Positions 53,421 through 62,925 of a DNA stretch of 64,000 nucleotides are shown piece after piece. The notes under the pieces are model-generated. The model was not told the origin of the DNA, did not search any database, and saw only the letters and a program-made list of their open reading frames with translations. Made by a program: the position numbers and the translations under genes. Source of the stretch: a virus; the IMG/VR virus record IMGVR_UViG_3300021963_000021, positions 235,944-299,943 of that record. One strand, given 5' to 3'. Numbering within the stretch: position 1 is the first letter of the stretch; the number at the start of each line of letters is the position of its first letter.

Positions 53421-53449
53421 ATTATACAATCTCTGTGTGTGTTTGTCAA
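53421..53449 (-). promoter_or_regulatory. sigma-70 promoter, perfect consensus
   Basis: TTGACA (53444-53449), 17-nt spacer, TATAAT (53421-53426). It lies at the 3' end of dnaK and drives hsp20. Confidence 0.93.
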
Positions 53450-55320
53450 TCTGTTTGTTTGAAGTCAGCATCCACTACAGTTTCACCTTCTGTTTTGGAT
53501 TCTTCTTTTTTGGCTTTCAAATCAAACAATGGCTTGGTGGCAGCAAACAAGTCACTGATCTTTTCAGATATTTTGTCCTTGTCGGTTCCTTTGAGTTCTT
53601 CTTCAAGAGCCTTAACAGCATCTTCAAGTTTGCTTTTTTCTTCTTCAGATAACTCGGAACTAAACTGCTCAATATCTTTCTTGATAGAATGGATCTGTGC
53701 TTCTGCTTGATTTTTAGTTTCAATCAGATCACGTGCCTTCTTATCTTCCTCGGCATTGATTTCTGCGTCACGGATCATATTTTGGATCTCTTCGTCAGAC
53801 AATCCGCTGTTGGCTTTGATCGTGATCTTGTTTTCTTTGCCTGTGTTTTTGTCCTTGGCACTTACTTTTAAAATACCATTAGCATCAATATCTAGTGTAA
53901 CTTCGATCTGTGGAGTACCACGAGGTGCCGGAGCAATACCTTCTAGATTAAATTCGCCTAAGAGTTTGTTGTGTTGTACAAGCTCACGCTCGCCTTGGAA
54001 CACTTTGATTGTAACAGCAGGCTGATTGTCGTCAGCTGTTGAGAATGTCTGTGACTTCTTAGTTGGGATCGTTGTGTTCTTGTCAATCAACTTGGCCATT
54101 ACACCGCCCATTGTTTCAATACCTAGGCTCAATGGAGTAACGTCAAGTAACAGAACGTCTTTGCGATCGCCTGCTAGAACAGCACCTTGGATGGCAGCGC
54201 CGACAGCAACTGCTTCGTCTGGGTTAACGTCTTTACGTGGTGCTTTGCCGAACAGTTTCTCAACTGCTTCCTGTACCTTAGGCATACGTGTCTGTCCACC
54301 AACAAGAATAATCTCATCAATGTCAGCTGGAACAACACCAGCATCTTTCATAGCAGTACGGCAAGGAGTCAACGAACGCTCAATGAGATCTTCGACTAGG
54401 CTTTCTAACTTGCTGCGTGTAAGTTTAACAATCAAATGCTTAGGACCACTAGCGTCAGCAGTGATGTATGGCAAGTTAACTTCTGTTTGATTGTTGCTAG
54501 ACAATTCAATCTTTGCTTTTTCAGCTGAATCTTTCAAACGCTGTAATGCCAGTGTGTCATTCTTAAGATCGACACCTTGTTCTTTCTTGAACTCGTCGAC
54601 CAAATAATCCATGATACGTTGGTCAAAGTCTTCGCCGCCCAGGAATGTATCACCGTTGGTGCTCAGTACTTCGATCTGTTTGTCGCCATCTACGTTAGCA
54701 ATGTCGATGATACTAACGTCAAATGTACCACCACCAAGATCGTATACAGCAACCTTACGATCCTTGCTGTCACGCTTGTCTACTCCATATGCTAGAGCAG
54801 CCGCAGTTGGCTCATTGATAATACGTAGTACTTCTAGGCCAGCAATCTTACCAGCATCCTTGGTTGCCTGTCTTTGGCTGTCGTTAAAGTAAGCAGGTAC
54901 TGTGATAACAGCCTGTGTTACTTCGTGGCCCAGATAGTCTTCAGCTGTGGACTTCATCTTGCGAAGAACTTCTGCTGAAATTTGTGGGGGTGCTAAATTA
55001 TTGCCCTGTGCTTCAATCCAAGCATCACCGTTCTTTGCTTCAGTGATTTTGAATGGCATTAGGTCTATGTCTTTTTGTACAGCCTGTTCTTTGAACTTAC
55101 GTCCGATTAAACGCTTGGCTGCGTAGATAGTGTTCTTGGCATTAGTCACTGCTTGACGTTTTGCTGGAGCACCTACTAGGATTTCATCGTTAGCGTAGGC
55201 AACGATACTAGGCGTAGTTCTTGCGCCTTCTGAGTTTTCTAATACTTTGGGGATTCCGTTTTCAATAACGGCTACACATGAATTTGTGGTACCCAAGTCG
55301 ATACCGATGATTTTACTCAT
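53446..55320 (-). CDS. dnaK: DnaK (Hsp70) chaperone
   Basis: 624 aa, essentially full length (E. coli 638). [40 protein letters not shown], and [13 protein letters not shown] are the ATPase motifs; [14 protein letters not shown] begins the substrate domain; the tail ends VVDADFKQ as in bacterial DnaK (VVDAEFEE). No dnaJ or grpE here, so it would use host co-chaperones. A full-length phage DnaK is very rare. Confidence 0.97.
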
Positions 55321-60875: not shown

Positions 60876-61268
60876 TTATCGACGCATTTTGGCAATTTCT
60901 GTAGCCTGCTCTTCATTCAATACCGGAACAGCGTTGCTTTTATGCATAGTTGCGATGCCCTTGATCAGTGTACCTGTGTATACAGGACTAGGCTTTTTGG
61001 CAGCAACACCGCAGCTATCTGGACTGTTCAAACTAGGATAATGCGGAGTCTGTCGCTGATAGCTAGGAGATGACTGATAAGGAGGAGCTTTCAGGCCTCT
61101 TTCTTTTCGAGTGTTCTCCAAATTGATCTTATGTTTCTTTAACAGTTCTTCCCAAGACTTCGCTGCTTCTAAAGCCTTGGCTTTGTGTTCTGCGCTTTTA
61201 AACTTTGGCTTCTTGCGCTTTTTGGTATTGGTTGTTGACAACCACGGACCTTCTAAGTGCATTGACAT
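60876..61268 (-). CDS. conserved marine-phage hyp. protein (MHLEGPW type), 130 aa
   Basis: Start ATG 61268 after GGAGATAATA. MSMHLEGPWLSTT opening, a basic KKRKKPKFKS segment and Pro/Ser-rich C-terminus; this opening recurs in marine T4-like phages. Function unknown. Promoter at 61300-61328. Confidence 0.75.
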   Translation of the reverse strand: MSMHLEGPWLSTTNTKKRKKPKFKSAEHKAKALEAAKSWEELLKKHKINLENTRKERGLKAPPYQSSPSYQRQTPHYPSLNSPDSCGVAAKKPSPVYTGTLIKGIATMHKSNAVPVLNEEQATEIAKMRR

Positions 61269-61299: not shown

Positions 61300-61328
61300 A
61301 GTATACGCTCTTTCAAAGATAAAGTCAA
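61300..61328 (-). promoter_or_regulatory. sigma-70 promoter
   Basis: TTGACT (61323-61328), 17-nt spacer, TATACT (61300-61305), immediately after the pqqA terminator. Confidence 0.85.
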
Positions 61329-61329
61329 G

Positions 61330-61350
61330 AAAAAGCCCACCGAAGTGGGC
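61330..61350 (-). terminator. rho-independent terminator of the pqqA-like gene
   Basis: GCCCAC-TTCG-GTGGGC followed by TTTTTC on the minus strand, a UUCG-capped stem with T-run, 20 nt after the pqqA stop. Confidence 0.92.
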
Positions 61351-61369
61351 TCTTGTATGATAAGAACAA

Positions 61370-61441
61370 TTATCTGTTCATTACATACATGGTTACTTCA
61401 AATCCGTAACGCATTTCAACTGCTTCTGGTTTTGTCCACAT
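61370..61441 (-). CDS. pqqA: PqqA-like peptide (PQQ precursor)
   Basis: 23 aa, ATG 61441, AGGAG 6 nt upstream. It begins MWTKP, has R11, then GFEVTMY at 13-19 and ends NR, matching bacterial PqqA along its length. The crosslinked pair is present: Glu15 and Tyr19 (E-x3-Y), joined by PqqE during pyrroloquinoline quinone synthesis. It has its own leader and terminator, so it is an independent transcript. No pqqB, C, D or E is seen in the window; none of the nine radical SAM proteins looks like PqqE. Host enzymes would be needed, or the peptide acts as decoy. Confidence 0.9.
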   Translation of the reverse strand: MWTKPEAVEMRYGFEVTMYVMNR

Positions 61442-61567
61442 AGTCGTTCTCCTTTGTTCAACAAATTTAAAAACATACTGTCTGTGTAACTGTATGTATC
61501 TATATTGTATAGGAAAAAACGTCTATTTCACATACAGAAGATCATTAAAAGATACTAGCTAGGCTCT

Positions 61568-62131
61568 TTAGAATCTAACCAAGTATCCGACGTTGGCGCC
61601 TGTGTAATCTGAATCACCACGTGCTCTGTCGATTCCAAAAATCACTGCCTGTGTCTTAGACACAGAGTATTCGGCACCTAGCTTCCATGTACGTGTTAGG
61701 TCAGCATTAGCAGTTGGGTCAAAGGCATCGCGGAAACGATAACCAACCTTGACAGCTAGTGCTGGACTCACAGCGTACTTAACGCCAGGCTCGACTGAGT
61801 AGTATGCGAACTTGTCGCCAGGAATAAACTTTTCACCAGCAGCCACACGAGCATAAGCAGTGATTCCATAGTTGAAATCAACACTAGGTGTTAGGCCAAG
61901 TTCCAAACGAGTTTGGTTGGCGCCATTGCCGTCTGTGAAAAGCGATTCACTGAACACGTCTGCCTTTAAACCTTTGACAACATCTGTGCCAAAGTTTACT
62001 TGATAGCCCTGACGATTGGCTGCGCCACCGACAGGATCTTCAAAACGGTAAGACATGCTAGCAAAGCTGTCTGCGAAAGCAGGAGCAGCAGATACTAGAG
62101 CGAACAAAGTTGCGATCAAAATTTTCTTCAT
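61568..62131 (-). CDS. small outer membrane beta-barrel protein
   Basis: 187 aa with a signal peptide (to about 20, AFAD). Alternating strand pattern throughout and C-terminal GYLVRF with terminal Phe, consistent with an 8- to 10-stranded barrel (OmpW/OmpX-like). Likely delivered to the host outer membrane. Perhaps superinfection exclusion or permeability control. Confidence 0.78.
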   Translation of the reverse strand: MKKILIATLFALVSAAPAFADSFASMSYRFEDPVGGAANRQGYQVNFGTDVVKGLKADVFSESLFTDGNGANQTRLELGLTPSVDFNYGITAYARVAAGEKFIPGDKFAYYSVEPGVKYAVSPALAVKVGYRFRDAFDPTANADLTRTWKLGAEYSVSKTQAVIFGIDRARGDSDYTGANVGYLVRF

Positions 62132-62186: not shown

Positions 62187-62546
62187 TTAAGCCTGTCGAG
62201 TTAGATAGCTAATTCTGACATTATCTGCGCCAAAATATTCCATAACGCTGGCTTCACAGACTTCTATGGCAAATTCCTTACAACTAAAGATATCGATGTA
62301 AGCATGTCCAAAACTAGGAACGAAATGCCCAGTGATACTGGAAGTCTCGATTAACTGTACCAAACTGTAGCCTGCCTTGGCAGGATCATGTTCGGCAAAA
62401 TATTCGATAATGGGCTCACCGTAGGCCTTCATATCGATACGGCTAACCAATCTCTTAACAAAGGCTTCGATGTTTTCTCGATCGTTGATAAGATCGACAT
62501 CGCAACCTGAACAGTCTAACATCAAATGATAACCCCAATATGCCAT
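62187..62546 (-). CDS. speD: S-adenosylmethionine decarboxylase proenzyme
   Basis: 119 aa. LIETSSITGHFVPSFGHAYI spans the autocatalytic pyruvoyl-forming site, and DIFSCKEF follows, as in marine phage SpeD. Produces decarboxylated SAM for polyamines. It follows the tmRNA by about 20 nt with AGGAGAAAG, so it may share its transcript. Confidence 0.87.
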   Translation of the reverse strand: MAYWGYHLMLDCSGCDVDLINDRENIEAFVKRLVSRIDMKAYGEPIIEYFAEHDPAKAGYSLVQLIETSSITGHFVPSFGHAYIDIFSCKEFAIEVCEASVMEYFGADNVRISYLTRQA

Positions 62547-62565
62547 TTCTTTCTCCTTTTGGCAA

Positions 62566-62870
62566 ATGGAACAGGCTACCGAAGTAGCCTGTTCTGGAAG
62601 TTTCTGTTGCTAGGTATTCCTACCCCAGGCAGGGTTTAAGCTGCCAATGCGTAAACGTTGTCGTTTGCGTTTAGTTTGTTTGCTTGATTTAGGGTCATCG
62701 CCTACCCTGCTGTCCACTTTGATACTCAATACCCTGTCGAACCTAATTCAGGCCCATCAAAAGCACTTCTCGATTTACATTCCCCCGAATACATCATTTC
62801 TGGTTCGGCTAATACGCAAATGCTTTTGGTGGACCTGGCCGGTACTGCCCCGGCGTCCAGAACACCTTTT
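62566..62870 (-). ncRNA. ssrA: permuted two-piece tmRNA
   Basis: On the minus strand the acceptor piece comes first: GCCGG-loop-CCGGC T-arm, CAGGTCC, A73, CCA (62827-62829). After a short spacer, the coding piece begins GGGCCTG (62749-62755), which pairs with CAGGTCC, followed by GAATTAGGTTCGACAGG as in tmRNA 5' ends. The tag frame (62636-62668) encodes ANDNVYALAA then TAA. A UUCG-capped 11-bp hairpin (62570s-62590s) ends it. This order (acceptor before tag) is that of two-piece tmRNAs. It rescues stalled ribosomes. The outer ends are approximate. Confidence 0.9.
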
Positions 62871-62896
62871 TCATTGCTTCACACAGCAATAATACT

Positions 62897-62925
62897 ATTT
62901 AACAGTCTTTGTTGACAGTTGTCAA
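62897..62925 (-). promoter_or_regulatory. sigma-70 promoter of the tmRNA
   Basis: TTGACA (62920-62925), 17-nt spacer, TTAAAT (62897-62902). The -35 is inside a short TTGACAACTGTCAA dyad. Confidence 0.78.

Follow-up and report, generated by a model that had tools for sequence, protein, structure and literature searches.

Why a virus would carry pqqA, the gene for the peptide from which PQQ is made, is the question raised by a very short ORF in the 363,943-base virus contig IMGVR_UViG_3300021963_000021. The analysis was centered on a window of 64,000 nucleotides, bases 235944-299943 of that record. On the minus strand, window positions 61441..61370 hold 23 codons plus a stop and translate to MWTKPEAVEMRYGFEVTMYVMNR; the first-pass annotation had given these coordinates exactly but had named no strand. 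The product is a genuine PqqA by both family profiles. Pfam PqqA (PF08042) matched with an E value of 7.1e-9 and 35.9 bits (curated cut-off 21.1) over all 19 profile positions, and NCBIfam TIGR02107 with 1e-8 and 34.9 bits (curated cut-off 20) over all 21, so that the profile search proposed earlier upheld the likeness to PqqA. As predicted, the Glu-x3-Tyr pair crosslinked by PqqE is retained, as E15 and Y19. The pattern encoding GFEVTMY had a single occurrence in the window, none of 100 shuffles contained it, and the copy at 61370-61441 was the only pqqA in the whole record.

The ORF is flanked by a series of putative signals on the same strand. The Shine-Dalgarno sequence AAAGGAG (61449..61455), read from the sequence 7 nt before the ATG, agrees with the good ribosome-binding site claimed before, and such a site was present upstream of 135 of the 144 viral pqqA with a full upstream region among the matches listed. 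A promoter-like site at 61504..61531 (-10 TACAAT, weak -35) is a consensus match only, and its -10-like hexamer aligns with TATAAT of relatives. Across viral pqqA a -10 element was counted in 67 of 144 cases versus 51.8 in shuffles (among the matches listed); as this slight excess is barely above the shuffles, no general promoter is claimed. A stem-loop in the 5'-UTR (ACATAC...GTATGT, 61473..61497) begins 6 nt past the -10-like hexamer. Its stem was kept in 9 of 10 jumbo-phage cassettes compared (this record and L006, L117, L300, L301, L327, L340, L349, L353 and L358), with paired changes C-G/A-T, A-T/G-C and T-A/C-G, and may act either as an RNA hairpin or as a DNA dyad. Downstream of the ORF, folding (dG -17.3 kcal/mol, z -4.4) and comparison with relatives both indicated an intrinsic terminator at 61331..61354, with the stem AGCCCAC-UUCG-GUGGGCU and a U-rich tail. 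The UUCG terminator expected from the first inspection thus exists, but it lies 15 nt after the stop codon and not 20. GCCCAC(TTCG)GTGGGC was nearly constant 3' of pqqA in most relatives, with compensatory changes, and a terminator-like hairpin followed 66 of 147 phage pqqA (among the matches listed) versus 3.2 expected. Directly past the terminator, a promoter-like TTGACT-17-TATACT (61300..61328, minus strand, consensus match) precedes the next gene, and TTGAC also comes after the terminator in most relatives. The terminator core CCCACTTCGGTGGG occurred a single time in the record, and the upstream element, sought elsewhere in the record as a repeated phage promoter element, was not found. 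Because neither recurs, the cassette looks like one inherited unit.

The terminase, tail sheath, head protein and DNA polymerase of the record match phage families, and the large terminase shares 48-53% identity with its counterparts in PA5oct, Phosso and Atu_ph07, all jumbo phages, which places pqqA inside a jumbo myophage. Misassembly of the contig or contamination with host DNA was considered, as such errors exist in sequence collections. The longer of two contigs labelled Acinetobacter phage MD-2021a (CAKLQF020000010.1 105210-111275, L295) holds ppk and a pqq operon, with pqqB, pqqC and pqqD next to a gene for a radical SAM protein, and is evidently bacterial sequence in a phage collection. 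For the present record the probability of such an error is practically negligible, given its phage structural and replication genes, the syntenic pqqA copies in other viral contigs and the counterparts in isolated phages. Other genes were noted in the record. The window contains fourteen tRNA genes and an asterisk-flagged tmRNA gene (ARAGORN; tag ANDNVYALAA) at 58-1912 and 62545-62919, as well as a full-length DnaK at 53446-55320 on the minus strand (TIGR02350, 918.9 bits, over the cut-off). A ClpA-like ATPase (L131 1035-3377) scored below the equivalog cut-off, and a NodU-like carbamoyltransferase-like protein (L124 16995-18821, minus strand; 141 bits) far under the NodU cut-off. A 5-aminolevulinate synthase (L135 9201-10379, plus strand; record 328201-329379) reached 574.8 bits with TIGR01821 (cut-off 338.6); this enzyme opens the C4 route to heme. 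Its matches in the phage collection were all below 60% identity, and several were annotated as or resembled BioF or host sequence.

Conservation among related phages was assessed through the neighborhood. The gene downstream of pqqA (60876..61268, minus strand, likely start ATG 61268) belongs to phrog_27048, a family of unknown function, and is a syntenic neighbor of pqqA in relatives. When loci were collected through this neighbor and not through pqqA, 7 of 80 had pqqA upstream on the same strand; all seven kept E-x3-Y, and the terminator was mostly kept. Large related records, 44 in total, were gathered via the terminase, the phrog_27048 gene or the adjacent beta-barrel gene. Three carried pqqA and 41 did not, and among those found via the terminase the count was 0 of 29. 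In L033 and L035 pqqA adjoins a different part of the genome, matching the record at 20-40 kb. Thus, the expected conservation was seen in place, strand, E-x3-Y and mostly terminator near the phrog_27048 gene, but not across the clade, where pqqA is an accessory gene; for viruses represented by fragments, not finding it is no proof that they lack it. Such coming and going is expected for a gene tied to host metabolism. Two further minus-strand genes lie close by: an S-adenosylmethionine decarboxylase (PF02675, 62187-62546) and, beside pqqA, a beta-barrel-like protein with a signal-peptide-like start (61568-62131), which had one relative (38%) among viral contigs.

To which bacteria the peptide points was examined by a genome scan for EMRFGFEVTMY. 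Among the matches listed, most came from Methylophilaceae or MAGs of that kind, with the host consensus MWT[TK]PAATEMRFGFEVTMYVMNK. Judged by its residues, the window peptide is of the Methylophilaceae type; it has the length, W2, P5, R11, G13, E15, Y19 and N22 in common with the host peptides but V8 and Y12 instead of T8 and F12. Sampled Methylophilaceae genomes carried pqqA in 100 of 100 cases, with 1-12 copies (median 4, two or more in 95), and PqqE in 97 of 100. Several pqqA beside a single pqqBCDE have been described earlier for this family (PMC4109929). Among the matches listed, PqqE was present in 20 of 118 host pqqA stretches, and a terminator-like hairpin followed 105 of 127 host pqqA versus 2.2 expected. 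Host pqqA is therefore mostly apart from PqqE and equipped with its own hairpin, and the phages carry the same type of free-standing unit as the hosts; the copy studied here differs in being phage-borne, with no pqqB-E partner found in the record. We infer that the phage most likely infects a Methylophilaceae methylotroph. By terminase, the closest named relatives infect Pseudomonas, Sinorhizobium and Agrobacterium, which counts against such a host. The earlier suggestion of a PQQ-using host gains indirect support, as all cultured carriers found infect Methylophilales or Methylophilaceae.

These carriers were identified with tblastn over 50,697 phage records, which returned 12 records with pqqA. 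Nine belong to six cultured Methylophilales or Methylophilaceae phages, MEP401, MEP402, Venkman, P19250A, MEP301 and Melnitz (four strains); the other three are one uncultured podovirus and the two contigs labelled Acinetobacter phage. Other named Methylophilales phages, MEP431-434, Venkman EXVC038S, MG-MTP1, RSA-MFP1 and the partial HIM624-A, were left aside. The cultured carriers span at least four lineages (Zobellviridae MEP401/402; Kyanoviridae Melnitz; Venkman with P19250A; MEP301). Viral contigs were additionally scanned with degenerate DNA patterns in two overlapping scans. The GFEVTMY scan gave at least 120 stretches, and all those listed carry a PqqA-like ORF of 23-25 residues. The second scan fixed codons 1-11 only and also gave at least 120 stretches, with 119 full ORFs and one (L144) cut by the contig end. 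Together at least 150 distinct contigs with pqqA were obtained. DNA clustering of the pqqA contigs yielded 12 components, which is not a lineage count because shared genes can merge lineages.

Viral pqqA is under purifying selection, including at the crosslinked residues. E15 and Y19 were invariant in 119 of 119 complete ORFs from the scan of codons 1-11, which did not select on them, and positions 4, 6, 7 and 21 were variable in the same set (in both cases among the matches listed). For codons 12-23, outside the selection of the scan, 104 distinct viral sequences among the matches listed gave a pS of 0.71 and a pN of 0.047, a ratio of 0.066. Six distinct viral peptides were identical to host ones, and some viral copies equaled host copies base for base. 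These data bear on two other readings. Phages carry small host-takeover peptides, and the sequence would be compatible with a decoy or regulator that holds PQQ production down, by competition with host PqqA or by signalling. In a decoy, the Glu and Tyr should be lost or altered, whereas the unselected set keeps both without exception, and the copies identical to those of hosts also speak against this very unlikely role. Alternatively, pqqA could be a passenger without benefit, acquired repeatedly since Methylophilaceae have many free-standing pqqA mini-genes. The abundance of host pqqA, mostly away from PqqE, and the differing places of pqqA in the related jumbo contigs L033 and L035 would fit such a history. 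It is nevertheless unlikely in view of the high synonymous divergence with a pN/pS of 0.07, the conservation of the 5' stem and terminator with compensatory changes, and the occurrence in unrelated phage lineages having compact genomes.

To define where the peptide could be processed, the record was searched for the remaining components of a PQQ pathway. No PqqE (best score 22.5 bits versus a cut-off of 381) and no PqqD were found in the record as available, itself possibly an incomplete genome, which carries the absence of other pqq genes, first noted for the window, over to the full contig. The proposed look-up of pqqD and pqqE was thus negative for the phage record and positive, for PqqE, in the presumed host family. 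No PQQ alcohol dehydrogenase or methanol dehydrogenase was found in the record; a weak PF13360 match within a long ORF (22.4 bits) was rejected as methanol dehydrogenase because TIGR03075 found none. Among other pqqA-carrying viral records, many of them fragments, 0 of 50 had PqqE over the cut-off and 49 lacked a match even at 1e-5; likewise, none was found in 150 viral pqqA stretches among the matches listed. Of 48 other pqqA-carrying viral records tested, one encoded a PQQ alcohol dehydrogenase resembling methanol dehydrogenase in type. This 72-kb contig (L043, IMGVR_UViG_3300025120_009955) encodes the enzyme, with 608 bits over the frame, together with pqqA; it shares short DNA stretches with the window and resembles Baikal viruses in this gene pair.

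A 24-kb part of the window (4258-28016) encodes nine radical SAM proteins that exceed the Pfam cut-off. As a second possibility, the first-pass annotation had offered a RiPP precursor role, in which radical SAM enzymes of the phage itself would convert the peptide into a phage-specific product, and the presence of nine such proteins is in its favor. Such a system would comprise a cognate PqqE-like maturase and a PqqD-type partner encoded by the phage. Of the nine, however, none is PqqE and four belong to the twitch-domain subfamily NF033640; 33 kb separate pqqA from the nearest one. With no PqqD in the record, no PqqE-like match in 49 of 50 other viral carriers tested and a peptide that retains the canonical host sequence, this possibility was abandoned as extremely unlikely. 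As the record lacks PqqE, PqqD and methanol dehydrogenase and no radical SAM protein is PqqE, feeding of the host pathway is the best supported role. It was also the first suggestion made for this locus, and it is supported by the Methylophilaceae type of the peptide, the retained Glu and Tyr, and PqqE in the host family but none in the phage record.

The solo pqqA is thus very probably an auxiliary metabolic gene of a jumbo myophage with a likely Methylophilaceae host, through which the phage restocks the substrate for host PQQ synthesis. As befits an auxiliary metabolic gene, it is of host type, resides in a genuine phage genome and is under purifying selection in phages. It is established biochemistry that PQQ synthesis uses up PqqA as a substrate, while the remaining Pqq proteins can act again (compare PMC9851590). 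In the proposed mechanism the host would provide the enzymes PqqB-E and the phage only the substrate peptide, which would be spent at one molecule per PQQ. Extra phage PqqA during infection could maintain the PQQ supply after host transcription declines and thereby keep methanol dehydrogenase and its electron flow supplied; pqqA alone would be the cheapest route to this end. What we infer here is which host is infected, that pqqA is expressed during infection, that its product is turned into PQQ and that the phage gains in fitness. Because the hosts already own several pqqA, the marginal gain from a phage copy is unproven. Overall, viruses of methanol-eating bacteria probably carry pqqA to keep the infected cell burning methanol. 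With less assurance, we lean toward the broader view that solo pqqA is a near-general trait of Methylophilaceae phages, a promoter-hairpin-peptide-terminator cassette in unrelated lineages that serves as a substrate-only auxiliary gene and was overlooked because 23-codon genes escape gene callers. Existing genome annotations largely miss the gene: in MEP401, MEP402, Venkman, P19250A, MEP301, Melnitz-1 and the podovirus, no CDS is annotated over pqqA on its strand.

Phage pqqA as such is of a kind already known. The Lake Baikal methylotroph virus VP_266 encodes a PqqA for which a boost to PQQ and to methanol oxidation was proposed (Coutinho et al. 2020, PMC7678222); VP_139 and VP_266 encode methanol dehydrogenase as well (PMC7678222), whereas this phage does not. 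A reservoir study (PMC13188868) also names it in its list of viral genes, and a keyword search of the OM43 phage papers PMC9004378, PMC8024684 and PMC8163748 gave no mention of a phage pqq gene. The OM43 medium published in PMC9004378 has PQQ among its components. The breadth of occurrence, the solo cassette with conserved flanks and the logic of restocking a consumable substrate appear undescribed, no description having been found in the available papers. PA5oct, Phosso and Atu_ph07, alike in their terminase, differ in having other hosts and no pqqA match in the phage collection by tblastn. Because every cultured carrier found infects a methylotroph of Methylophilales, its presence could be used to infer the hosts of uncultured viruses. 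A similar logic, and only that, is found in cyanophage psbA (D1 protein; PMC2570332), where the phage likewise carries a used-up part of a host energy pathway. The product of psbA is a protein subunit, whereas PqqA is a peptide substrate turned into a cofactor. In the carbon flow of coastal waters and freshwater, one step is the PQQ-dependent oxidation of methanol by OM43-type bacteria. Should their phages routinely carry the one part of PQQ synthesis that is consumed, this oxidation may be sustained by infection, much as photosynthesis is thought to be sustained by cyanophage psbA. Venkman, Melnitz and the MEP phages, which are cultured together with their hosts, make this idea directly testable.
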